From contig NZ_AP014809.1 of NCBI RefSeq assembly GCF_002355515.1, positions 2,814,501 through 2,878,500 of the forward strand: DNA of 64,000 nucleotides. Direction: 5' to 3'. Below the pieces are notes generated by a model. That model ran no database searches, was not told where the DNA came from, and saw only the letters and a list, made by a program, of their open reading frames with translations. Shown here piece after piece: positions 5,890 to 18,130 of the stretch. The stretch is from Methylorubrum populi (GTDB lineage Bacteria; Pseudomonadota; Alphaproteobacteria; Rhizobiales; Beijerinckiaceae). Position 1 is the stretch's first letter; each line of letters starts with the position of its first letter. The position numbers and the translations under genes are program-made.

Positions 5890-7008
5890 GTCGAGGGCCG
5901 CCCGCTTCTCCGGGTTGTAGAGGGCGTAATTGTAGACGCCCGCGACCCCGGCCTTTGTGCCCGAGATGTGGTTCAGCACGGCCTCGACGACGTGCGGCAG
6001 CACCCCGAGGTTTCCCATGCCGGTGGCGGCGGTCCTGCGCAGGTCGTGCAGCCGCCAGCCGGTGACCCCCGACGCCTTGTCGAGCGCAGCCTTCGCCCGG
6101 GTGAAGCCCTGGAAGCCGCCGACCCCGCTCCCGAACACGAGATCCCGCCCGACGATCGCGGGCGCGCCCGCCAGGATCGAGAGCGCGGCGTAGGACAGCG
6201 GCACGTCGTGCGGGAGGCTGTTCTTCGTCCGCTCCTCTGGCAGGTGCCAGATCCCGGCCGCGAGATCGACCTCCGCCCACGCCATCTCCGCGACTTCGTC
6301 CCGCCGCTGCGCGGTCAGCAGCAGCAGCCGGACGATGCGGCCGAAATCGCCCTCCGGTAGCGCCTTCAGGATGGCCGCGATTTCCTCCGGCCGAAGCACG
6401 CGCTGCCGGCGCTCTTCCTTGATCGGCTTGCGGGTGCCGACGACCGGGTTCGCCTCGGCTGCACCTTCCGCGATCAGCCACGTGAAGAAGGAGGAGAGCG
6501 TCGTGCGCGCCCGGTTCGCGGCGTGCGGTCCCGAGCCCTTCGCGATCTCGCCCAGCCGCTCGGCGACCTGCGCCCGCGTCACGCCATCGACCGGCGTCTT
6601 GTGCAGCGGCGCCCACGCTTTCTGCAGGTAGTAGGTCGATTCGCCGAGCCCCTTCGCGCGTACCCGCGGCGCCAGCGCCTCAAGGTATGCCGGGATCTTC
6701 GTGGCGACGGTAACGGCCGCGCGCTTTCGCTCGGCCTCCCGTTCCGCGCTCGGGTCGGCGCCGAGCCGCACGCGAGCGAGCCGCTCGGCCGCCGCGCGCC
6801 GGGCATCGGTCGCGGACAGCACGCCGACCTTGCCGAGGGTTTCCCGCTTCGTCTGCCCGGTGGCGTTGCGGTACTGCACGACCCAGACCCGCGAGCCGCC
6901 CGCGTTCGCCCGCATCCCGAACCCGGCCAGATCCTCGTCGAAGACGATGACGTAGGCCTTCCCCTCCGGCACCTTCAGAGCTGCCGCCGATTGGTTCGTG
7001 AGGCGCAT
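5803..7008 (-). CDS. int: Tyrosine recombinase (P4-type integrase)
   Basis: 401 residues. The N-terminus (MRLTNQSAAALKVPEGKAY ... DLAGFGMRANAGGSRVWVVQYR) is the DUF4102 arm-binding domain; a core-binding helical region covers about 95-180. The catalytic domain carries Arg in TAQRRDEVAEM, Lys in RTKNS, HDLRR, LNH and the probable nucleophile Tyr in VYNYALY. It drives insertion into a tRNA gene: its 5' end is about 160 bp from a tRNA 3' fragment at 7170-7215. It is intact, and its 3' end overlaps the AlpA-like gene on the other strand. Confidence 0.92.
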   Translation of the reverse strand: MRLTNQSAAALKVPEGKAYVIVFDEDLAGFGMRANAGGSRVWVVQYRNATGQTKRETLGKVGVLSATDARRAAAERLARVRLGADPSAEREAERKRAAVTVATKIPAYLEALAPRVRAKGLGESTYYLQKAWAPLHKTPVDGVTRAQVAERLGEIAKGSGPHAANRARTTLSSFFTWLIAEGAAEANPVVGTRKPIKEERRQRVLRPEEIAAILKALPEGDFGRIVRLLLLTAQRRDEVAEMAWAEVDLAAGIWHLPEERTKNSLPHDVPLSYAALSILAGAPAIVGRDLVFGSGVGGFQGFTRAKAALDKASGVTGWRLHDLRRTAATGMGNLGVLPHVVEAVLNHISGTKAGVAGVYNYALYNPEKRAALDLWAAHLAGLDPSIKIAPPDAEAPLAETK

Positions 7009-7013
7009 CGGCT

Positions 7014-7136
7014 GGTAAGCGTCCGGTAAGCAGGTAGTAAGCAGATGGGGCCAGCGCCGACGCGCGCCCCGCGCGAGACGGAGATGGTATCGGCGAAAAC
7101 GTGCACGTCCTCAAGCGGTTTGGGAGGCTGGTAAGC
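7014..7136. repeat. Short direct repeats between integrase and attachment site
   Basis: GGTAAGC occurs at 7014-7020, 7025-7031 and 7130-7136, with a variant AGTAAGC at 7036-7042. The first three copies are spaced 11 bp apart, about one helical turn. They lie between the integrase start and the tRNA fragment, where arm-type integrase sites usually occur. Their role as binding sites is inferred from position and spacing only. Confidence 0.45.
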
Positions 7137-7169
7137 GCGGGATGATCGCCGATTACTGGCGGACATCTG

Positions 7170-7215
7170 TTTTACACGGAGAGGGTCGGGGGTTCGAGTC
7201 CCTCACCGCCCACCA
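7170..7215 (+). other. Attachment site: 3' portion of a tRNA-Val gene (anticodon loop to CCA)
   Basis: TTTTACACGGAG gives an anticodon loop with TAC (Val) and its 3' stem. GGGGG-TTCGAGT-CCCTC forms the T arm, and ACCGCCC-A-CCA is the 3' acceptor strand and tail. No matching 5' acceptor (GGGCGGT) or D arm lies upstream, so this is not a complete tRNA. It fits an att site: the full tRNA should lie at the far (left) end of the element, outside the window. Chromosomal backbone starts after 7215. Confidence 0.75.
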
Positions 7216-7627
7216 ATCGGATCAGGCACTTAGCGCAGGTCTCGGATGCGCCGCACCCTGAAGCCAATGGTTCGGGTGCCGATACCTTCTATCTGCTGCT
7301 CTCGTGACGGCCGGTGGAGCGCGTGTGCGCCCGAGCTCGCCGCGCCCGGTCAGTTCCCCGATCCACATGCGACCTGCAGGCGAAAAGGGCGCGAGAGAGG
7401 TTGACTAGGGGCGACCGGACTGCGCCGCTCGATCAGCGCTTGCCGCGCAGACGATCAATCCGAGCACAGCGCTCCGTTGAACCGATTTACTTGCAATTTG
7501 ACCCTGAATTATTCGTGCAACTGAGCGTAGTTCTGATCGCTGACGAGCGATGTATCTCGAAACGATGCATTAATATCAGGAATTTAACCAGTTAGTCCCG
7601 AGTTGATATAAATAACAAGTGTTAGTT
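7216..7627. other. Intergenic region without recognised gene
   Basis: Between the attachment site and the chemoreceptor. A 93-codon frame at 7314-7595 has unconvincing composition and no ribosome site, so I do not call it. The last ~80 bp before the chemoreceptor are AT-rich and probably hold its promoter, but I cannot define boxes. Confidence 0.5.
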
Positions 7628-9301
7628 ATGCGTTCAATACGTTCGCGCGTCTACGCCACGCTCGCCAGCTTGTTTTCTGCCGTTGTCCTCATGGCCGGAG
7701 TTGGTTGGTATGCATCCAGCACGGCGAACCGAAGCATGGAGAGCATCTACGCCGACCGGGTGGTGCCGCTGCGTGATCTGAAGACGATCGCCGACATGTA
7801 TGCGGTCAAGATCGTCGACACGTCGCACAAAGTGCGCAACGCAAATATTTCGGCGCCTGAGGGTATCGCAGCCGTCACGGAAGCGCAGGCCCGTATCGGG
7901 CAGCTCTGGAGCGCTTATGCCGCAACGAACATGGACAGCGGGGAGAAGCGACTCGCGGACGCCGCCAAGTCTGCCATGATTTCAGCCGATGCCGGCGTCT
8001 CAGAATTGCTGGCGGCCCTGCACAGCAGTGACAAGGCGAACATCGAGCGATTTGTGAGCGATCGCCTGTACAGGGCGATCGATCCGGTGAGCGAGGTCAT
8101 CGGTCAACTAGTGGATCTCCAAATCGACGAGGCTCACGCGGTTCACCTGCAATCCTCGCAGGCCTACGCAGCGGCGGAGAAGATCGGCCTCGGAGCGCTT
8201 ATCCTCGGTCTTCTGGCTGCAGGGTTTGCTCTGAAGACGACGGTGGGGGGTGTGCTCGCTCCTCTCTCGGCGATCACCGAGATGATGCAGCACCTCGCCG
8301 CCGGCGACGTGACCCGATCGGTGCCCGGAGCCGGCCGGCGCGATGAAATCGGTGCGATGGCCGGCTCGGTTCAGGTCTTCAAGGACAACATGATCCGCAC
8401 CCGTGCCCTGGAGGCGGAGACTGCGCAGGCGCGGGCTTCCGCCGAGGAGCAGCGCAGGGCCGGCATGCGGCAGATGGCCGACCGCTTCGAGGCTGCCGTC
8501 GGCGGGATCGTCGGCAGCGTCTCCTCCTCGGCCACCGAACTGCAGGCGACCGCGCAGCAGATGACATCCACCGCGGGCGAGACGGCCTCGCAATCCACCG
8601 CCGTGGCCGCGGCCGCCGAGGAGGCCGCCTCCAACGTCAACACCGTGGCCGCGGCGGCCGAGGAGCTCGGCTCGTCGGTCGGCGAGATCGGCCGGCAGGT
8701 CGCCGGCTCGGCCTCCCTCGCCCAGGCGGCCGTGGGCGAGGCCGACCAGACTATGCATCTGGTCGAGGAACTGTCCGAGGCCGTCGCGACGATCGGTGAC
8801 GTGGTCGGCCTGATCTCCACCATCGCGGGCCAGACCAACCTGCTCGCACTCAACGCCACCATCGAGGCGGCGCGGGCGGGTGAGGCGGGGCGGGGCTTCG
8901 CGGTGGTCGCATCGGAGGTCAAGGAACTCGCCTCGCAGACCGCCCGCGCCACCGAGGAGATCGGCCGGCATATCGGCCGTGTTCAGGGGGTGACGGGGCA
9001 GGCGGTGGGCGCCATCGGCGCGATCACGCTGCGCATCCGCGAGATCAGCGCCGTGGCAGCTTCCATCGCGGCAGCCGTGGAGGAGCAGGGCGCGGCCACC
9101 CAGGAGATCGTGCGCAATGTCGCCCATGCCGCCGCCGGCACGGGCGAGGTCACGCACAACATGGCGGGGCTGGCCCAGGCTTCGGAGGAGACCGGCGCGG
9201 CGGCCACGCAGGTGCTCGCCTCGGCCTCCGAGCTGTCGCGCCAGTCCGAGCACCTCTCCGCCGAGGTGCAAAGCTTCCTCGACACCGTGCGCGCGGCCTG
9301 A
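7628..9301 (+). CDS. Methyl-accepting chemotaxis protein
   Basis: 557 residues. A TM helix lies at ~10-30, a four-helix-bundle-like periplasmic sensor at ~35-185, a second TM helix at ~190-207 and a HAMP domain at ~208-262. The cytoplasmic signalling domain has the invariant hairpin-tip sequence ([20 protein letters not shown]) and Ala/Glu-rich methylation helices. It senses an unknown ligand and would control CheA through CheW. The ATG at 7628 is preferred; a GTG at 7619 is possible. No che genes are adjacent, so it is an orphan receptor beside the element. Confidence 0.93.
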
Positions 9302-9328
9302 AACGATCGATCAGGTCAGCATCTTGGT

Positions 9329-9352
9329 GACCCGTCCCAAGGCGGGCGGGTC
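9329..9352 (+). terminator. Hairpin after the chemoreceptor gene
   Basis: GACCCGTCC and GGGCGGGTC form a 9-bp stem (one G-U) with a 6-nt loop, 28 bp after the stop. No T-run follows, so it may be only a weak or Rho-assisted terminator. Confidence 0.4.
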
Positions 9353-9477
9353 GATCATCCGGCGCCATCAATCGGCTTCGGTGCCGCGTTGATGCCTCCT
9401 TCTTCCACGGGCTGCGCGGAGAACTGAAACGGACGCGCTCGGTCGCGTTCCCCTTTCAGGCAGGAGCGGAGGACGAC

Positions 9478-9585
9478 ATGGAAGGCGGACTGATCTGGCT
9501 CGGCATCATCGCCGGCATCCTGGGGCTGAGCGGCGTCGGCTATCTCTTCGCGTCCTGGGCGAAAGCGCGCAGGACGCCGCGCTAA
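9478..9585 (+). CDS. 35-residue single-pass membrane microprotein
   Basis: The ATG is preceded by a strong purine-rich ribosome site (GGAGCGGAGG). The product starts MEGGLIWLGIIAGILGLSG and continues as one hydrophobic helix, ending in a basic tail (AKARRTPR), which predicts an N-out/C-in single-pass peptide. No homologue is recognised. It stands alone between the chemoreceptor and the glycosyltransferase. The start signal and composition support it, but its size keeps confidence moderate. Confidence 0.55.
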   Translation: MEGGLIWLGIIAGILGLSGVGYLFASWAKARRTPR

Positions 9586-10191
9586 GAAGCCTCGCGGCGA
9601 TGCGGGTCAGGCAGACCCTGCACCTTGCTTCGCGGCGAGGGACGGTTGCCAGCCGTGCCGCTCCTGCGGCGCCGGGGCAGCCTGCCCGGCCGTGTTGTCG
9701 TTGTCGCCGGACCGTCGGAGCCCGGTCCCCATCCGCTCCGTCTTCGCTTGCGCGCGGAGCAACAGCGGCACGAGGCGCGGCGAACGGCGATGGATCCAGG
9801 CCGCCTGCCGCCCGCGCAGGGGGCGGCCGTACTGGACGCTTTCTCTTCCAAACATGCTCATTGTTCACGGGACGGTTTGGCTAAATCGCCTGGTAGGCTA
9901 ACCGCAGACCGCGCGGATGACTTGACTGAGCGTCCCAAATTTTCGGGCCCCCGAGAGAGTTCCTCCGGGCGCAGCCTTCTTGCAACGCGTGGGTCGAGGT
10001 TCGACCGGATTTCGGCGTCCCCTGCTTCGGCCGGGCCGCAGGCGAGCGTCGGCCGCGGTTTTTTGCGCCGGCGAAGCTGCGCCGCGGATGAACATCCCCT
10101 CCTGAGCCGCTCAACCAGTGGCGCCGTCGAAGGCACGTGCCGGCGCCTGCCGGCTGAAGCTGACGCGAGAGGAGGGGGCTGGAGCTCCGGA
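9586..10191. other. 606-bp intergenic region without recognised gene
   Basis: Open frames here (for example the upstream extension of the glycosyltransferase frame from 9625) have Arg/Pro/Ser-rich composition typical of GC-rich noncoding DNA. I see no tRNA, clear promoter or strong terminator. It presumably holds the promoter of the glycosyltransferase. Confidence 0.45.
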
Positions 10192-11430
10192 ATGACGGAT
10201 TTCCTGTTCGTCCATAACCACTTCCCGGGCTCCTTCGGATTTCTCGCCGAGGCGTTGCAGGATCGGGGGCACCGCTGCGCGGCCATTGCCGGGGAAGGCG
10301 CACCGGGTCTCGACGGCCTGCCGATCCTGCGGTGGCGTCCGGGACGGAAGGCGACGCCGGGTCTGTTTCCGCTCGCCCATCCCATGGAAACGGCGCTGAT
10401 CAACGCCACCGCCGCCCTGCGATGCGCCATCGACCTGCGCAAGCACGGCTTCGATCCGGCCGTCGTCGTCTGCCATCCGGGGCGCGGAGAAACGCTGCTG
10501 CTGAACCAGATCTTCCCTCGTGCGCGCCGGCTCGCCTACGCCCCGTACTATCGGGCGGAGGGGGATGCGCTGGGCTTCGATCCGGAATGGACGCGGCCGC
10601 CCAACCTCGAAGACCGTCTGCGCGACCGGGCCGGGAACGCGGCCCTGGCCATGGCCTATGCCGAGGCGGAAAGGCTCGTCTGTCCCACCGAGTTCCAGCG
10701 CAGCCTCCTGCCGCCGGCCCTGCGGGCGCAGGCGAGCGTGATCCACGAGGGCATCGATACGGATGTGGTGCGCTACGATCCCGATGCGGCGCTGCGTCTG
10801 CCGAACGGGCGCGTCCTGACCAAGGCGCGGCCCGTCGTCACCTTCATCGCCCGGCAGCTGGAGCCCTTGCGCGGCTTTCCGACCTTCATGCGTGCTCTGC
10901 CGCGCCTGCTCGAAGCGGTGCCTCAGGCCGAGATCCTGATCGTGGGAAGCGACGGACGCCGGGACGCCGCGGCGAAGGGAGCCTCGGCGCAGACTTGGAA
11001 GGCGCGCCTCCTGACTGAGCTCGACGGCCGGCTCGATCTCGAGCGCATCCACTTCGTGAGCCGTCTCTCGCATGACGAGATCCTGGCCGCCCTTTCCGTA
11101 GCGACGGCCCATGTCGCCTACACTTATCCCTTCTCGCTCTCGCGGGTCTTCCTGAAGGCGATGGCCTGCGAGTGTCTCGTGATCGCCTCCGACACCGCAC
11201 CCGTGCGGGAGGTGATGCGGGACGGCGTGAACGGGATCATCCGAAACTTCTTCGACGCGGATGCGCTGGCGGAGGCGCTCATCCATGCCTGCCGCATGCC
11301 GGAACGGACGCGCCCTCTGCGGGAGGCGGCCCGGCGCACGGTCATCGAGCGCTACGACCGGCGCCGGCACTGCCTGCCGACCTGGCTCGCACTCCTCACC
11401 TTTCTCGCGGACACGCCGGCCCGTGCTTGA
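10192..11430 (+). CDS. Glycosyltransferase family 4 protein
   Basis: 412 residues. The ATG at 10192 has GGAG 7 nt upstream. The N-terminal domain starts FLFVHNHFPGSFGFLAEAL and carries HPGRGETLLLNQIFP and YYRAEGDALGFDPEW, the pattern of the Glyco_trans_4_3 N-terminal domain. The C-terminal GT-B half has FIARQLEPLRGFPTFMRAL and ILIVGSDG. A weakened EX7E-like segment (SRVFLKAMACECLVIASDTAPVREV) follows. It should transfer a sugar from a nucleotide donor, probably in surface polysaccharide synthesis. No other glycan genes adjoin it; acceptor and donor are unknown. Confidence 0.85.
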   Translation: MTDFLFVHNHFPGSFGFLAEALQDRGHRCAAIAGEGAPGLDGLPILRWRPGRKATPGLFPLAHPMETALINATAALRCAIDLRKHGFDPAVVVCHPGRGETLLLNQIFPRARRLAYAPYYRAEGDALGFDPEWTRPPNLEDRLRDRAGNAALAMAYAEAERLVCPTEFQRSLLPPALRAQASVIHEGIDTDVVRYDPDAALRLPNGRVLTKARPVVTFIARQLEPLRGFPTFMRALPRLLEAVPQAEILIVGSDGRRDAAAKGASAQTWKARLLTELDGRLDLERIHFVSRLSHDEILAALSVATAHVAYTYPFSLSRVFLKAMACECLVIASDTAPVREVMRDGVNGIIRNFFDADALAEALIHACRMPERTRPLREAARRTVIERYDRRRHCLPTWLALLTFLADTPARA

Positions 11431-11460
11431 AAATCGATGGCCGTTCTTCGAGAGGACGCT

Positions 11461-12420
11461 TTACCGTGCCTGGAACAGGTGCAGGCTGAAACCGCTGTCG
11501 TCGTCGATCCAGAGGCGGACCGGCTCCCAGCCCTGCGCCGTCGCGAGGGCCCGGAAGACCTCGGGTGGGTACTTGTGCGAGGTGTCGGTGCGGATGCTCT
11601 CACCCGCCTCGAAGCGGATCGTTTGACCCCCGAGCTGATAGGTGCCTGCTCGAAGGGCTACGAGGTGGGCCTCGACCCGGAATGGATCCTCGGCGAGCCG
11701 CGCCTCGTGACGGAATGCGCTGCGGTCAAAGTCGCTTCCGAGCTCCCTGTTCAGCCGGTCGATGAGATTAAGGTGGAGGGCCGCCATCAGGCCGCCGGCC
11801 TCGCCGTAGGCGCGGCGTAGACGGATTGGGTCGCGGGTCGGGTCGGCGCCCACCAGGAAATGGCTCGGCCCCAGCGTTTCGCGAGCGCGTGCGAGGAAGC
11901 CGCCCGCCTGCTCCGGTGTGAAGTTGCCGATGCTGGTGCCGGGGAAGAAGCCGAGGATCGGCGGTGCCGCCGCCCCCGGCGGCAGGCGGACCGGCTTCGA
12001 GTAGTCGGCGACGACCGGCATCATCGCCACGCTCGGATAGTCCGATGCGAGCCGCCGGATCGCCGCTTCGAGATAGGCGCCGGATATGTCGAGGCCGAGA
12101 AAGGCGGCAGGCGCCTTCAGGGCGTCGAGCAGGGTGCGGATCTTCCGGCTCGCACCGCTGCCGAACTCCACGACGCTGACGCCCGGACCGACCAGGGCTG
12201 CGACCTCGGCGGCAACCTGCGGCAGGAGCGCCATTTCGCGCTTCGTCGGGTAGTAGTCGGGATGGGCGCAGATCCGGTCGAACAGGTCGGAGCCGGTCTC
12301 ATCCCAGAGATACTTGCCGGGCAACGTCTTCGGGTTGCCCGACAGGCCGGCCAGTGCGTCGCGCAGGAATTCTGCGCGCTCGCTTGTCCCATCCTCTGCC
12401 ACGCCTTCCGTCGCGCTCAT
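11461..12420 (-). CDS. EgtD-like SAM-dependent amino-acid N-alpha-methyltransferase
   Basis: 319 residues, the usual EgtD length. It has the SAM motif EFGSGA (85-90), FFPGTSIGNF (158-167) with the substrate-carboxylate Asn, and Tyr205 in RRAYGEAGG. EgtD trimethylates histidine to hercynine. Compared with my memory of M. smegmatis EgtD, the position equivalent to Met252 is Ala251 and that of Glu282 is Asp279 (RTDTSHKY). Both shape the substrate pocket, so another amino-acid substrate is possible. No egtB adjoins. It overlaps the upstream methyltransferase gene by 4 bp and is last in the operon. Confidence 0.85.
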   Translation of the reverse strand: MSATEGVAEDGTSERAEFLRDALAGLSGNPKTLPGKYLWDETGSDLFDRICAHPDYYPTKREMALLPQVAAEVAALVGPGVSVVEFGSGASRKIRTLLDALKAPAAFLGLDISGAYLEAAIRRLASDYPSVAMMPVVADYSKPVRLPPGAAAPPILGFFPGTSIGNFTPEQAGGFLARARETLGPSHFLVGADPTRDPIRLRRAYGEAGGLMAALHLNLIDRLNRELGSDFDRSAFRHEARLAEDPFRVEAHLVALRAGTYQLGGQTIRFEAGESIRTDTSHKYPPEVFRALATAQGWEPVRLWIDDDSGFSLHLFQAR

Positions 12421-13436
12421 CGCACGCCGTCCCGGCGCGTCGCGGTGAGGACGACGAGGGCGATGCGCTCGGCTGCCGCGTAGCCGGGGTCGTCGAGTTC
12501 CTCGCCGTACTCGTCCGGATCGAACTCGCGGTAGGACCATTCGAGACCTGACCGTTCGCAGATCGCGCCCGCCTCGGCCCGGAAGCCGTCATGGCCCTCG
12601 ACGATGGCCGAACCGGTGAACAGGACGAGGGAACCGCCCGGCGCCAGACGCTCGGCCGCCGCTTCCACGACGCGCAGCGAGAGCCCGGCACCGAGCGGCC
12701 CGCCGCCGTGCCGATAGGCCCGCTCTCCGGCATCGACCATGAAGGGAGGGTTGGAGACGATGAGATCGAACACGCCCTCGACGCCGCTGAGCATGTCGCT
12801 GTGGACAGTGCGCACGTTTTCGACGCCCGCGAGGCGGGCATTGATCCCCGCCACGCGCAGGGCTGCGGGATTGATGTCGACGAGAGTGACCTCGGCCTCG
12901 GGTAAGCGTTTGGCGACGAGGATGCCCGCCGCGCCCGAGCCGCAGCCGATATCGACGGCCCGCCGCGGCGCCGGTCGCCCGGTTCGGGCCCGCTCTTCGA
13001 GATGAGCGAGAACCGCCTCAGCGAAGCGCATCGTGTCGGGGCCGAAGAACACCGAATCCGCCGCGAGCGGCGGATAGGCGGCGTGCAGGAACAACTCGTC
13101 ATCCAGGCTCGACAGGCGGATGCGCGCCTTCAGGAGGGTGTCGTCGGGACCCTCCTCAGCACGATCGAGCACGCCCGCCTGCTTCATCAGGTCGGTCAAT
13201 CCGGCCGGGATCGCATCCTCGCGGAATGGGCGGCTCCAACCCAGTACGTCGCGCAGAGACCGGGCGACGGCGTTCTCAGGCCGGGCGTTGACCCGGGCAT
13301 GCGTCGCGGGGGTCACCGTGGTGAAGCGGTAGCCGCTGTCGCGGACGGCGCGCGCCAGGGCGAGAAGCGCCTCGTCCGGATTCGCGTCGCGAGAGCTGGT
13401 CTCGGCCGGGCGGGTCAGGGTATCGGCCGTGGTCAT
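12417..13436 (-). CDS. Class I SAM-dependent methyltransferase (MTS/HemK-like)
   Basis: 339 residues. An N-terminal domain of ~150 residues (RFTTVTPATHARVNARPEN ...) precedes a Rossmann methyltransferase with motif I VDIGCGSGAAGILV, acidic residue in VTLVDINPAALRV, and SNPPFMV. The NPPF motif usually means methylation of a planar amide or amine nitrogen, as in PrmC or the RlmG group. It starts 2 bp downstream of the YqcI/YcgG stop and overlaps the EgtD-like start (ATGA). Its substrate is unknown; context suggests a small-molecule pathway rather than a translation factor. Confidence 0.8.
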   Translation of the reverse strand: MTTADTLTRPAETSSRDANPDEALLALARAVRDSGYRFTTVTPATHARVNARPENAVARSLRDVLGWSRPFREDAIPAGLTDLMKQAGVLDRAEEGPDDTLLKARIRLSSLDDELFLHAAYPPLAADSVFFGPDTMRFAEAVLAHLEERARTGRPAPRRAVDIGCGSGAAGILVAKRLPEAEVTLVDINPAALRVAGINARLAGVENVRTVHSDMLSGVEGVFDLIVSNPPFMVDAGERAYRHGGGPLGAGLSLRVVEAAAERLAPGGSLVLFTGSAIVEGHDGFRAEAGAICERSGLEWSYREFDPDEYGEELDDPGYAAAERIALVVLTATRRDGVR

Positions 13437-13438
13437 CC

Positions 13439-14194
13439 TCAGCCCTCCATCTGTCCGGCGACGAAGGCGCCCGAGCGGAGATCCGCCGCGACCTGCTGCG
13501 CATCCCATTGCGCGGCTCCCTCCCGCCGCCGGTACGGGCAGACCCAATCGTCGGGCACCGCCCGTCCGCTGAACTGCCGTGCGGCCGAGCGCTCGCCATG
13601 CTGGGCCAGCATCGGATTCACCGAGCCGGTCCAGGCCACATCCCGCTCGACGATCGACTCGCGCAGCCGCTCGTAGCGACCCTCCGCGCGCAGGCGCTCG
13701 AACTGGTCGTGCAGATTGAACACCAGCACCGGATGATCGAAGCGGCGCGCCTTGCGGCTCGCGCCGGGATGCAGCCCGACGATGAAGAAGCCCTCGCCGC
13801 CCAGGCTCATCGAGAAATGCGGGTCGTCCGGGTCGGCCGAGACCCGCGGATCCTGAACATGTCCGACCCCGCTGTCACGGTCGGACAGCGACTGCATCCG
13901 GCGCCAGAGAGCCGCCTCGAAGGCTTCTTCCGTGAGGCTGCGGGAATCCTCGAACACGACGGCGAAGCTCTGGAACTGGTCGCGGCTGGCGCGGTAGCGG
14001 CAAATGAAGGCCAGGAGCGCCGGATAGATCCGCGCGTCGTCCGCATCGGAGGCGATGTCGCGGGCGACCAAGACCTTGAGCTGTCCGCGGGACAAAGCGG
14101 ATTTGGCGCCGACGCAGGGGAACGGCTGTTGGCGGATGAAGTGCCGGAAGCGCTCAGCGAGCGGATGACCGGTGTCGTCGGTGGGCAGCAGCAT
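13439..14194 (-). CDS. YqcI/YcgG-family protein, GntA-like heme-dependent N-hydroxylase candidate
   Basis: 251 residues. Family blocks are clear: FIRQQPFPCVGAKSAL near the N-terminus, then FQSFAVVFE, DDPHFSMSLGGEGFFIVGLHP with SRKARRF, VFNLHDQFERLR, NPML, RQFSGRAVP and WVCPYRR. Members include GntA of guanitoxin synthesis, a heme-dependent enzyme hydroxylating a guanidino-type nitrogen; I recall DcsA of D-cycloserine synthesis acting similarly on arginine. Activity here is inferred. The ATG at 14194 is preferred because upstream extension lacks family similarity. Its stop lies 2 bp before the next methyltransferase. Confidence 0.75.
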   Translation of the reverse strand: MLLPTDDTGHPLAERFRHFIRQQPFPCVGAKSALSRGQLKVLVARDIASDADDARIYPALLAFICRYRASRDQFQSFAVVFEDSRSLTEEAFEAALWRRMQSLSDRDSGVGHVQDPRVSADPDDPHFSMSLGGEGFFIVGLHPGASRKARRFDHPVLVFNLHDQFERLRAEGRYERLRESIVERDVAWTGSVNPMLAQHGERSAARQFSGRAVPDDWVCPYRRREGAAQWDAQQVAADLRSGAFVAGQMEG

Positions 14195-14479
14195 GACACC
14201 TCGTGTGGGGCGGGCAAGCGGACGTCGCGACCGGACCTGACGGCCCGATTCGGTGAAGAGCGCGAGAGGGAAGCCGGCCGACACGCGGTCCGCCGGTCGT
14301 CGGAGAAGGTGAACTGCGCGGGGAACCTCGGCTCCCAACCATTGTTCCGCGAAGCTTGGGGATAACGGTGGGCATAAGCCCTGTTGGTCATCTGCGGATT
14401 GTCTTGATCAGCCGCGGCATCGTGGCGCAGACTTTGGTCGGCACGCGAAAACAACTTACCGACACAATTCCTTCAAGCG

Positions 14480-15076
14480 TCAAGACTCGATCTCGTAGTG
14501 AATCGGCTTGAAGGAGAAGTTGTTCGATTGCAGTGCCGAGCAGGCGGTCAGGCCGATGACGAGGTTCTCCTCCGCCACGAAGCTCACCCGGTCGCCGGCC
14601 CGGCTGAGCGGCGGGCGCACTGCGATCTCGCCGCTCTGCCCGTCGATGGTGACGTGCATGAAGACGTTGAAGGCGACCGGAATGCGGTCCGGCACGATGC
14701 CGTAGGGCGCCAGCGCATCGGCGAGATTGCCGAAACAGCCGCGGTGCGGATGTTCGTCGCCGTAGATGATCCGGAACGTGTCGGCCGAGCAGGGCGTGAG
14801 CAGGAAGTCGTGGCGGCCCACCGTGTCCTCGACGATGCGCAGGAGCACGTTCGAACGGTTGGAGTAGATCGGATCGCCCGTCGTCAGAAAGATGCGCGAG
14901 GCGTAGTCGATCGTGCGGCCCGAGGAGATGACCTCGTCGAGGTCGTCCCGCCGGAAAGCGACGAGGTCGGCCACCTGCTCCCCCTGGGGATCGATCACCG
15001 TGAGACGTTGGCCGCGGTCGAGGGTGAAGGCCGCCCCGGAGCGCGGCGGGATCTCGTGACGCACGGGTCGGCTCAT
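14480..15076 (-). CDS. DUF1989 (urea carboxylase-associated) family protein
   Basis: 198 residues. LDRGQRLTVIDPQGEQVADLVAF, then TIDYASRIFLTTGDPIYSN, FLLTPCSADTFRIIYGD, HRGCFGNLADALAPYGI and AFNVFMHV are the conserved beta-barrel blocks of DUF1989. Relatives accompany urea/guanidine carboxylase genes, but the reaction is not known to me. It is first in the leftward cluster, separated from the YqcI/YcgG gene by 285 bp, which includes no gene. A divergent 170-bp region separates it from the OPT transporter. Confidence 0.8.
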   Translation of the reverse strand: MSRPVRHEIPPRSGAAFTLDRGQRLTVIDPQGEQVADLVAFRRDDLDEVISSGRTIDYASRIFLTTGDPIYSNRSNVLLRIVEDTVGRHDFLLTPCSADTFRIIYGDEHPHRGCFGNLADALAPYGIVPDRIPVAFNVFMHVTIDGQSGEIAVRPPLSRAGDRVSFVAEENLVIGLTACSALQSNNFSFKPIHYEIES

Positions 15077-15245
15077 CGGTCGTTCTCTCTCTGGTGCGGG
15101 GCAGGCCCGCGGGATCGCGCCGGTTCATCGCCGAACCAGGCTTGGCAGCAGTGATGGCGCGACGGGGGATCAGACGAGGGGCCCGTCGGGTTCCCGAACG
15201 GTGGCAACGTCCCGAGCCGTGGGGCGATACCGGAGACGCCTGCCC

Positions 15246-17267
15246 GTGGATGCACGATCCGACGAACGTTCCTCACCCCCCGGCGCGGCCGACCGGGACG
15301 GCTCTCGTCACATCGCCGAACTGACTCTGCGCGGCCTTCTGCTCGGCGCGGTGATCACGGTCGTGTTCATGACCGCCAACCTCTACATGGGACTGAAGAC
15401 CGGGGTGACCTTCTCGACCTCGATCCCGGCGGCCATGCTCTCGATGGGCTTGCTGCGCCTGTTCGGCGGGTCCGGTATCCTCGAGAACAACATCGTCCAG
15501 ACCCAGGGCTCGGCGGCGGGCACTCTGTGCAACGTCATCCTCGTCCTGCCGGGCCTCGTCCTGATCGGCCACTGGCACGGATTCCCGTTCTGGCAGACCA
15601 CCGCCGTCTGCCTCATCGGCGGGCTGATCGGACTCGTCTACTCGATTCCCCTGCGGCGCGCGCTCGTGATGGGCGCCGGGCTTCCCTATCCCGAGGGCAC
15701 CGCCGCGGCCGAAGTGCTGCATGCGGGCGAGGCTGGCGATCGCGGCGGCCTCAGCATCCTGCTCGGCGCGGCCGGGGCAGGCGGATTGATCGGGCTCGCC
15801 ACCACCGGCTTCCGTCTCCTCGCCGAGGGCCTCCACGCCACCCTGGCGGTCGGGCCGGCCCTGTTTCGGTTCGCCACCGGCTTTTCCCCCGCTCTCGTCG
15901 GAGTCGGCTATCTCGTCGGGCTCGGTGCCTGCCTCGCCCTGCTCGCCGGCGTGGCCCTCGCCTGGGGCGTCGCGGTACCGCTGCTCACCGCCTTCGGCGG
16001 TGGCGTGGGCACCGCGGGTGCGGAGGCGGCGGCGCGGGCGGTTTGGTCGGAGAAGGTTCGCCTCATCGGTGCCGGCATCATCGCCGTCGGCGCGATCTGG
16101 ACCGTTGCCTCCCTCGGCCGCTCCATCCTCGGCAGCATCCGCTCCGCCTTCGGTGCGGCGCGGGGCGGCGGCCACGCCCTGCGCCAGTTGCCCCGCCAGG
16201 AGCGCGACCTGCCGATCACCTGGGTCGCCGGTGCCTCGCTCCTTCTCGCGCTGCCGCTGGCGTGGCTCTTCGTCCATTTCAGCGCGGGCGCCGAACTCGG
16301 GGGGAGGCGCCTCGCGCTGGTGGCGGTCGCGACCCTGTTCACGGTCGGCTTCGGCTTCCTGATGGCGGCGGCCTGCGGCTACCTCGCCGGCCTGCTCGGC
16401 TCGTCCTCCAGCCCGATCTCCGGCATCGGCATCCTGACAACCCTGCTCGCGGCCCTGCTCCTGCCGCTTCTGCTCGGCCGCGCCGCCGGGCCGGAAGGCG
16501 AGCGCTTCGTCGTCGCCGCGGTCCTGCTGCTCTCGTCCATCGTCGTCACCACCGCCTCGATCGCCAACGACAACCTTCAGGACCTCAAGACCGGCCAACT
16601 TGTCGATGCCACGCCTTGGCGGCAGCAGGTGGCGCTGGCGGCCGGCGTCGGCGTCGGCGCCCTCGTCATCGCACCGCTCCTCGACCTCCTCTACAATGCC
16701 TACGGCTTCGCTGGTGCGCTGCCACGCGAGGGGATGGACGAAGCTTCGGCCCTGCCGGCGCCGCAGGCCGCCCTGATGACCCAGATCGCCGGCGGCATCG
16801 TGCGCGGCGAGTTGCCCTGGTCGATGGTGGCGACGGGGGGCGGACTCGGGGCACTTCTCGTCGCCCTTGAGGCACGTCTGCGCCGCAGTGGCCGCTCGTT
16901 CCCGGCGCTCACCGTCGGGATCGGCATGTACCTCCCGCTGGAGGTGGTCGTGACGATCGCCTTCGGCGGCCTCATCGGCTGGCTCGCCGCGCGCCGTCTG
17001 CGCCGGGCCAGCGAGGCCGAGCAGGCGGGCGGGCGCCGCCGCGGTGTGCTGCTGGCGTCGGGGTTCCTCGTCGGCGAGAGTGTCGTCGGCGTGCTGCTCG
17101 CGGCCGCCGACACACTGAGCGGCCGCAGCGCCTCCCTGGCCTTCGCGGCGGATGCGCTGGGCGGGGCCGGGCCGTGGCTCGGTCTCGTCGTCTTCATGAT
17201 GGTGCTGACGGCGTTCTACCGTATCGCCTCGCACACGGACGAGGCGGGCCGTCGCGGCACTCGCTGA
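15246..17267 (+). CDS. OPT-family oligopeptide/metal-chelate transporter
   Basis: About 673 residues with roughly 14-16 hydrophobic segments. LRGLLLGAVITVVFMTANLYMGLKTG and SIPAAMLSMGLLR near the N-terminus, ENNIVQTQGSAAG, and LPYPEGTAAAEVL are hallmark OPT motifs. The family imports oligopeptides, or in the YSL branch metal complexes, by proton coupling across the inner membrane. A GTG at 15246 or 15201 may start it; the hydrophilic first ~35 residues make this uncertain. It diverges from the DUF1989 gene, so transport of the cluster's product or precursor is a reasonable inference. Confidence 0.88.
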   Translation: MDARSDERSSPPGAADRDGSRHIAELTLRGLLLGAVITVVFMTANLYMGLKTGVTFSTSIPAAMLSMGLLRLFGGSGILENNIVQTQGSAAGTLCNVILVLPGLVLIGHWHGFPFWQTTAVCLIGGLIGLVYSIPLRRALVMGAGLPYPEGTAAAEVLHAGEAGDRGGLSILLGAAGAGGLIGLATTGFRLLAEGLHATLAVGPALFRFATGFSPALVGVGYLVGLGACLALLAGVALAWGVAVPLLTAFGGGVGTAGAEAAARAVWSEKVRLIGAGIIAVGAIWTVASLGRSILGSIRSAFGAARGGGHALRQLPRQERDLPITWVAGASLLLALPLAWLFVHFSAGAELGGRRLALVAVATLFTVGFGFLMAAACGYLAGLLGSSSSPISGIGILTTLLAALLLPLLLGRAAGPEGERFVVAAVLLLSSIVVTTASIANDNLQDLKTGQLVDATPWRQQVALAAGVGVGALVIAPLLDLLYNAYGFAGALPREGMDEASALPAPQAALMTQIAGGIVRGELPWSMVATGGGLGALLVALEARLRRSGRSFPALTVGIGMYLPLEVVVTIAFGGLIGWLAARRLRRASEAEQAGGRRRGVLLASGFLVGESVVGVLLAAADTLSGRSASLAFAADALGGAGPWLGLVVFMMVLTAFYRIASHTDEAGRRGTR

Positions 17268-17335
17268 ACTGTCCTCGATTTCGTCGCGATTTCCGGCGAG
17301 TCTGACGACGCGACCGCCCCGTTGCGACGGATCTC

Positions 17336-18130
17336 ATGAACGCCCAAGCCCCGTCTCTGCCTTATCGCCAGAGCTTTCTCGACGTCTACCTGCGCGTCCT
17401 CAGCGCCTTGATGCTGCGCGATATGCGCAGCCGTTTCGGCGGAACCTATTGGGGCTATCTGGTTCAGGTGCTGTGGCCCTGCGCCCATCTCGCCATCCTT
17501 GTCGGCGCCATGACCTTTCGCGGCATCAAATCGCCGATGGGGGACGATCCGATGGTCTTCATAGCGTCGGGTGCACTCCCAGCGCTCGCCTTTCAGTACA
17601 TCTCGCGTGAGGTGATGAAAGGTTACATGATTCACAAACCGTTGACCTACTTCCCGCAGGTGAAGCGCTTCGACACCGTCGTCGCGCGCATCCTCGTCGA
17701 AATCGTCAGCAGTTTCCTGGGCGTCTGTCTTGTCTGCGTCGTGCTCCTCTGTTTCGGTGCCGATCCTGTTCCTGTCGATATGACGATGGCCATCGGCGGC
17801 TATCTGGCCGCGATCGCGCTTGGAATTGGGGTTGGAACAATCAATGTTGGAATATGCTCAGTTTTTCCGGGATGGGCTCTTGGCTATATATTAGTAACTT
17901 TGACCTTATATCTATCAAGTGGTGTTTACTTCATAGCATGTTATATGCCAGATGAGATTTACTATTACATGAAATGGAATCCGATAACCCAGATCATCGA
18001 GTGGGTTCGGCTCGGCTATGATCCGACCATCCCTGTTCAGGTTGATTACCTCTACCTCTTCGGCTGGGTTTTCGGCAGCCTCACCATCGGTCTGCTGATG
18101 GAGCGTTACGTGGTGAGGGCGCAGCAATAG
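17336..18130 (+). CDS. ABC-2 type transporter permease (polysaccharide-export type)
   Basis: 264 residues with six predicted TM helices. The start SFLDVYLRVLSALMLRDMRSRF and following GYLVQVLWPCAHLAILVG resemble the KpsM/Wzm group, which exports capsule or O-antigen with a KpsT/Wzt ATPase. No ATPase gene is adjacent, so its partner must be encoded elsewhere. Codons from about 17821 to 17990 are strikingly AT-rich relative to the rest of this gene and its neighbours, suggesting mosaic origin. Confidence 0.82.
   Translation: MNAQAPSLPYRQSFLDVYLRVLSALMLRDMRSRFGGTYWGYLVQVLWPCAHLAILVGAMTFRGIKSPMGDDPMVFIASGALPALAFQYISREVMKGYMIHKPLTYFPQVKRFDTVVARILVEIVSSFLGVCLVCVVLLCFGADPVPVDMTMAIGGYLAAIALGIGVGTINVGICSVFPGWALGYILVTLTLYLSSGVYFIACYMPDEIYYYMKWNPITQIIEWVRLGYDPTIPVQVDYLYLFGWVFGSLTIGLLMERYVVRAQQ

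Follow-up and report, generated by a model that had tools for sequence, protein, structure and literature searches.

The subject of this analysis is a 64,000-nucleotide stretch of the Methylorubrum populi genome (NZ_AP014809.1, positions 2,814,501 to 2,878,500; hereafter the window), and within it a group of five genes at 11461-17267 whose families behave, on strong evidence from related genomes, as one functional set. Three of them form an operon on the minus strand. It is headed by a YqcI/YcgG protein of the GntA type (13439-14194), followed after a gap of 2 bp (13437-13438) by a class I S-adenosylmethionine methyltransferase with an NPPF motif, here called MT (12417-13436), and then, with an overlap of 4 bp (12417-12420), by an EgtD-like amino-acid alpha-N-methyltransferase, here called EgtD2 (11461-12420). 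A DUF1989 gene (14480-15076), also on the minus strand, precedes YqcI by 285 bp, and an OPT-family transporter gene (15201-17267, plus strand) diverges from it across 124 bp. We see about an even chance that these genes form a small pathway that makes and transports a modified amino acid, which most likely derives from arginine. The enzyme families are known and their combination is new to us; an earlier reading of the letters alone, the first-pass annotation, had known of no described pathway with this gene set, and we found no account of it in the open-access literature searched.

Eight window genes were scanned with Pfam and NCBIfam profiles. EgtD2 scores 297 bits with PF10017 and 314 bits with TIGR03438 (cut-off 290.9); MT matches PF05175 and HemK/RsmC-type models; YqcI, scanned from a start 16 codons longer than the 13439-14194 call, scores 190 bits with PF08892 (cut-off 27) and 249.5 bits with the GntA model NF041366 (cut-off 145); the DUF1989 protein scores 185 bits with PF09347; and the transporter scores 345 bits with PF03169 and 605 bits with TIGR00733, both above cut-off. 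The first-pass annotation had the positions, strands, overlap and gap exactly right, and all five of its identities are borne out, the EgtD-like, GntA-like and DUF1989 ones by PF10017 with TIGR03438, NF041366 and PF09347, and the NPPF methyltransferase and OPT ones by the motif, PF05175, PF03169 and TIGR00733.

The check that it proposed, co-occurrence, was run on 99 Methylobacterium and Methylorubrum genomes, the same set for all five families, and the families prove to be linked, with correlated gain and loss. MT and EgtD2 occur in the identical 54 genomes, where EgtD2 is counted at 380 bits or more and the truncated copy of G018 is included. YqcI is found in 86 genomes, of which 84 also have DUF1989; DUF1989 never occurs without YqcI, and 13 genomes lack both; the two YqcI genomes without DUF1989 are G045, which has a YqcI fragment with a stop, and G057, which is 91% complete. 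MT is present in 54 of the 86 YqcI-positive genomes versus none of the 13 YqcI-negative ones (p = 1.2e-5, ignoring relatedness). OPT, counted at 65% identity or more with the fragments in G007, G019 and G884 taken as present, is in 51 of the 54 MT genomes versus 5 of the 45 others (p = 1.4e-18, again ignoring relatedness, with a cut-off picked after the list had been seen and two MT-free genomes just below it at 64%); with the looser set of any match at E = 1e-60 the figures are 51/54 versus 11/45 (p = 1.4e-13, also ignoring relatedness). For G013, with a broken YqcI before MT, G881, ordered like the window, and G884, the calls rest on coordinates or short contigs. The matches to YqcI, MT and EgtD2 lie between -9 and 99 bp apart in 30 of 30 loci measured. 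Chance grouping is excluded, because the families co-occur across the 99 genomes far beyond expectation and with this tight spacing; conservation is not limited to one strain, the set recurring in many species and in several gene orders.

Relatedness was taken into account on a 95-genome egtB-egtD gene tree, with G011, G063, G065 and G072 left out as having no listed canonical EgtD coordinate. The minimum numbers of changes on it are 25 for MT, 20 for OPT and 9 for YqcI. A dependent model of evolution beats an independent one for MT with OPT (p = 6.8e-15; under the looser OPT count, 8.6e-10) and for MT with YqcI (p = 2.3e-3), these p-values being rough, since a gene tree was used and the fit drove some rates to their bounds. 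That roughness is one of several points that weigh against a single pathway, and the late choice of the OPT cut-off is another. The pair YqcI-DUF1989 is MT-free in 32 of the genus genomes with YqcI, YqcI is missing beside MT-EgtD2 at 12 loci and survives only as remnants at 3 (these genomes keep YqcI elsewhere), MT carries an in-frame stop in G040, G077 and G886, EgtD2 is truncated in G018, and several OPT copies carry stops or lie in pieces. The first-pass annotation had named scattering in close relatives as an argument against a pathway; some is seen, in those 12 loci, and the overall linkage is kept.

Among rival readings the likeliest is that of two independent neighbours without a common substrate, a housekeeping YqcI-DUF1989 unit for guanidine or arginine oxidation (serving nitrogen, redox or nitric oxide) beside an unrelated MT-EgtD2-OPT unit, to which YqcI-DUF1989 standing alone in MT-free genus genomes and MT-EgtD2 without adjacent YqcI are both congenial. 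We think it unlikely, though worth keeping in view, in face of the lack of MT in any YqcI-negative genome, the correlated change on the tree, and the gene order. In the operon clade of the YqcI tree (34 members), MT and then EgtD2 follows YqcI in 32; the exceptions are L039, where MT is gone and EgtD2 is a fragment, and L045, with YqcI alone, while L038, one of the 32, has a broken EgtD2. Four loci in three genomes (L162-L165) have the opposite order MT-EgtD2-YqcI-DUF1989, and their YqcIs form a separate lineage with good support, which branches among pair-type and lone copies; two YqcI lineages joined MT-EgtD2 separately. In the EgtD2 tree these four loci sit beside an operon-type locus, L062, so the YqcI partners of MT-EgtD2 look exchangeable. 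Links to the transporter persist when the trio is disrupted or apart: in G049 DUF1989 and OPT form a divergent pair apart from the YqcI-MT-EgtD2 trio, and in G025 EgtD2 is divergent to OPT and on a different contig from MT. No OPT match was found in 18 fetched genus YqcI-DUF1989 loci without MT. The YqcI alignment leaves out L138 and a partial L080 row, and the MT alignment L057. As a separate observation, some genus genomes have accumulated extra lone YqcIs with no DUF1989 beside them (L078-L080, L082, L083, L089, L090, L092); G040 has five YqcI matches, and some of the lone copies carry stops.

Outside the genus, each of the 23 loci found with YqcI (L075, L114, L118, L123-L142) has a co-directional DUF1989 gene immediately downstream; these 23 loci span ten families by handle, and the YqcI of L142 is in two pieces. 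Among plasmid records 19 have a YqcI match, and eight of these were opened. The pair is present in six, from Sphingomonas (two), Skermanella, a Comamonadaceae bacterium, Deinococcus and Hymenobacter (there in two pieces); no adjacent DUF1989 was found in the opened Streptomyces and Rahnella plasmids, whose YqcIs are among the most divergent. MT, EgtD2 and OPT were not matched in the fetched stretches of the non-genus pair loci or in the opened plasmids. Standing without MT as it does outside the genus, in Pseudomonadota and in the opened Deinococcus and Hymenobacter plasmids, YqcI-DUF1989 must have a use of its own, which is a further count against one five-gene pathway and in favor of two neighbours. 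What emerges is that YqcI-DUF1989 is a core, widespread pair and MT-EgtD2-OPT an add-on to it. The single five-gene set of the first-pass annotation thus stands as to linkage and is changed as to structure, since its core stands alone elsewhere.

These pairs also bear on the name of the enzyme. NCBI names 14 of the 19 plasmid YqcIs as guanitoxin biosynthesis GntA, and in most of the opened records the neighbour is DUF1989, with no further gene bearing a gnt name; the GntA name looks over-extended. The notion that the window holds a guanitoxin-type cluster, or one of the graminine/diazeniumdiolate kind, has in its favor the NF041366 score and the arginine oxygenases GrbE, ChmN and DcsA, which PMC11705231 presents as related enzymes of other pathways. 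We regard it as very improbable, as YqcI-DUF1989 pairs of unrelated bacteria also match the GntA model, no other gnt match is present among the eight window genes scanned with NCBIfam (whose coverage of gnt genes may be partial), and a heme-oxygenase-like profile, built from the non-genus MT loci described below, finds nothing at E = 1e-6 in the open reading frames of 52 genus MT loci. One of the divergent plasmid copies has another setting: in L149, from a Rahnella sikkimica plasmid typed as conjugative, YqcI heads at 5956-11241 a same-strand row of SDR, 2Fe-2S protein, LysE exporter and MOSC protein.

What YqcI does can be approached through the functionally characterised YqcI/YcgG enzymes, of which PMC12866846 counts six, hydroxylating guanidine nitrogens of arginine derivatives. 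In AglA, of argolaphos biosynthesis, Cys44 is the heme ligand and Phe152 and Phe182 sandwich the arginine side chain, their alanine mutants being dead (PMC12866846). AglA is the only solved relative of a 23-sequence YqcI profile, at E = 1.4e-4, in a profile match that does not cover the heme cysteine. Phe152 and Phe182 align with Phe137 and Phe165 of the window YqcI in both pairwise and profile alignments; Cys44 aligns with Cys27 by the pairwise alignment only, which is weak (E = 0.07). Cys27, Phe137 and Phe165 are invariant in 23 of 23 YqcI rows, and the window YqcI is probably a thiolate-heme guanidine N-hydroxylase. Weighing against the proposed chemistry are the low similarity and uncovered cysteine just given, the fact that AglA hardly acts on free arginine (PMC12866846), and the replacement of AglA Gln177 and Arg179 by Asn160 and His162 in the window YqcI, an arginine being present at the latter position in some pair-type copies. 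Because of that replacement, backbone binding and regiochemistry may differ from AglA.

The DUF1989 protein is a predicted zinc protein and the companion of YqcI. Its Cys96, Cys114 and Cys179 are invariant in 18 of 18 DUF1989 rows, leaving a three-cysteine zinc-type site intact, with the zinc role taken from trimethylamine N-oxide (TMAO) demethylase as described in PMC12560246. The relatives in the Protein Data Bank are 3oru, 3siy and TMAO demethylase. The window protein scores far below the curated cut-offs of the named families, with 100.3 versus 284.7 bits for UAAP2, 77.9 versus 205.95 for UAAP1, and 78 versus 1100 for TMAO demethylase. Family kin include carboxyguanidine deiminase, which acts in guanidine utilisation (PMC11271267), and this kinship invites a catabolic explanation, in which OPT would import a guanidino peptide or betaine, YqcI and DUF1989 would release guanidine nitrogen, and the methyltransferases would detoxify intermediates. 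The eight scanned genes include neither a urea nor a guanidine carboxylase, and Rfam finds no guanidine riboswitch, at the gathering threshold, in the window or eight related loci. That OPT proteins are usually importers speaks for catabolism, that two dedicated methyltransferases are unusual in catabolism speaks against it, and on balance we hold this explanation to be doubtful.

EgtD2 shares 42% identity with the ergothioneine-type EgtD of this genome, which is encoded with egtB at 3.78 Mb, about 0.96 Mb from EgtD2. The gene beside canonical egtD there (L001) we take to be egtB from its motif, not by profile. A canonical-level EgtD match is present in 99 of 99 genus genomes, with coordinates listed for 95, and all 95 loci fetched show an egtB match next to it; EgtD2 is not next to egtB in the window. 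The roles of the amino-acid-binding residues of EgtD, and of T213 in its side-chain site, are given in PMC8593015. EgtD2 retains Y56, N166, Y205 and S281, which bind the amino acid, and its side-chain site reads M212, A251 and D279 in 50 of 50 rows (G013, G018, G025, G881 and G884 left out), versus T, M and E in 95 of 95 canonical rows (G011, G063, G065 and G072 left out) and M/A/D in none of them. M. smegmatis EgtD aligns like the canonical rows. M252 belongs to the side-chain site together with T213 and E282, and M252 and E282 are said to be the positions that Vit et al. mutated in 2015 to turn EgtD towards tryptophan. With T, M and E changed to M, A and D, EgtD2 looks dedicated to a non-histidine amino acid. 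The reading of EgtD2 as a plain ergothioneine enzyme was rejected on the pocket residues and the separate egtB-egtD locus. A rival reading, in which EgtD2 is a second histidine methyltransferase supplying hercynine, MT modifies RNA or protein and the neighbours are incidental, draws on EgtD2 passing the TIGR03438 cut-off and MT matching HemK, RsmC and PrmC domains; it is improbable, given three changed imidazole-site positions, the egtB-egtD pair elsewhere, scores of the window MT far under the cut-offs of those families, and the presence of MT and EgtD2 in the same genomes.

The best solved relatives of MT are HemK and RsmC. PDB entries 7rc2-7rc6, which we take to be AerE, an asparagine side-chain N-methyltransferase, match over a longer stretch at 40-45 bits, and in 7rc2, 7rc3, 7rc5 and 7rc6 the match spans the N-terminal region into the catalytic domain. 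The PrmC profile matches 16 of 16 MT family members, and the window MT is below the HemK/PrmC/RsmC equivalog cut-offs, at best 84.9 versus 199.1 bits. MT is probably a planar-nitrogen methyltransferase of the HemK/RsmC/7rc2 type.

A search of genome contigs gave at least 568 MT relatives, of which the best 80 were kept. Among these, the nearest named loci, in a list that may leave out the window's own record, are from Methylobacterium sp. R2-1, Methylorubrum aminovorans and M. thiocyanatum. The non-genus relatives are 52-63% identical to the window MT and count 48 loci, leaving out L203, which carries EgtD2 and OPT. In 38 of the 48 a heme-oxygenase-like gene stands directly beside MT on the same strand, in 4 it is elsewhere in the locus and in 6 there is none; PF14518 was confirmed on three representatives. 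Since heme YqcI is the partner in the genus and a heme-oxygenase-like protein elsewhere, two unrelated oxygenase types partner one MT family. Heme-oxygenase-like proteins include N-oxygenases, and PMC11705231 is in line with this. Weighing against the five-gene pathway are the 10 of 48 loci without an adjacent PF14518-type gene, and the absence of EgtD2, YqcI and DUF1989 from these non-genus MT loci. The cassettes in L196-L250 (Pseudomonas, Stutzerimonas, Actinoplanes, Roseomonas, Belnapia and others), of heme-oxygenase-like gene plus MT and sometimes a GCS2 carboxylate-amine ligase, are apparently a biosynthetic unit in their own right, and no known product was matched to them.

In the best reading of the predicted functions, OPT would transport an arginine-type amino acid that is methylated on its alpha nitrogen and hydroxylated on a side-chain nitrogen. 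To go by its family and conserved pocket residues, YqcI as a thiolate-heme enzyme would hydroxylate a guanidine nitrogen of the arginine-type substrate; DUF1989 may then process the N-hydroxyguanidine, for example by hydrolysis to a citrulline-type N-hydroxyurea; MT would methylate a planar side-chain nitrogen or its hydroxyl; EgtD2 would methylate the alpha-amino group up to the betaine; and OPT would carry the end product through the inner membrane, import being the likelier direction. A bolder version, which we offer tentatively, is that the product belongs to a new small betaine class, an alpha-N-trimethylated amino acid with an N-hydroxyguanidine or N-hydroxyurea, serving as an extracellular metal ligand or as a donor of nitric oxide or nitroxyl and recovered via OPT, with the core YqcI-DUF1989 as a widespread two-gene guanidine-oxidation module to which methyltransferase tailoring was added in Methylobacterium. 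If true, culturable plant- and soil-associated bacteria hold an undescribed metabolite pathway and an EgtD paralogue with a remodelled pocket, and many genomes may be misannotated where a widespread YqcI-DUF1989 module is named after guanitoxin. The MT family, partnered with oxygenase-type genes, is a handle for finding N-oxygenated natural products. Further background is in PMC6771848, PMC11085572 and PMC9103826.

The divergent region between DUF1989 and OPT (15077-15200) has conserved blocks in an alignment of 11 loci and probable promoters. Between DUF1989 and YqcI, a 10-codon open reading frame that would encode MPRLIKTIRR (14388-14420, minus strand) precedes the start of YqcI by 226 bp; it falls inside an inverted repeat that is conserved, and is possibly a leader peptide or an operator. 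Its length is unchanged in 10 of the 12 loci from the window's clade, where a conserved hairpin follows it, and no such frame was found in 22 other operon-clade loci checked. Attenuation by an arginine leader is kept as a side note only, the frame being confined to the window's clade and sitting in an inverted repeat. Riboswitch control was rejected, Rfam giving only tRNAs on the window and the eight related loci. An ARAGORN tRNA call at 7122-7215 (plus strand) with anticodon tta (stop) is absent from the Rfam matches at gathering threshold and is probably spurious. The G+C content is 0.66-0.70 over 10001-18000, within the whole-window range of 0.64-0.72. The flanks hold a glycosyltransferase, a chemotaxis receptor and an ABC-2 permease, in a neighborhood partly common to close relatives and mostly not found in more distant species. 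SDR, YdcZ-type exporter, YgjV, DUF4336, DUF2243 and metallo-beta-lactamase-fold proteins recur near MT-EgtD2, mostly within shared local synteny.

It remains to place the five genes among known systems. Similar in design are GrbD/GrbE of gramibactin and ChmM/ChmN of chalkophomycin, which also join a YqcI-related arginine N-oxygenase to a second processing enzyme; there the second enzyme is heme-oxygenase-like or a cupin and the product enters a nonribosomal peptide synthetase (NRPS), whereas here it is DUF1989, with no NRPS among the eight genes scanned. With GntA of guanitoxin the window YqcI shares a score far above the curated cut-off, but like the non-genus copies it travels with DUF1989. 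CgdA and CgdB (UAAP1/2) and TMAO demethylase have the DUF1989 domain and the three-cysteine zinc site in common with the window protein, which differs in failing their profile cut-offs and in pairing with YqcI. MT resembles the 7rc2-7rc6 methyltransferase and HemK/RsmC, but its partners and its probable small-molecule substrate differ. EgtD of ergothioneine synthesis shares with EgtD2 the whole family profile and the ligands of the alpha-amino and carboxylate groups, and differs in the T, M, E side-chain site and the link to egtB, where EgtD2 has M, A, D and no egtB neighbour. Lastly, AglA is of the same family as the window YqcI, with the heme-ligating cysteine and the phenylalanine pair in common and Gln177/Arg179 in place of Asn/His; AglA works in a phosphonopeptide cluster, whereas the partners of the window YqcI are DUF1989, MT, EgtD2 and OPT.

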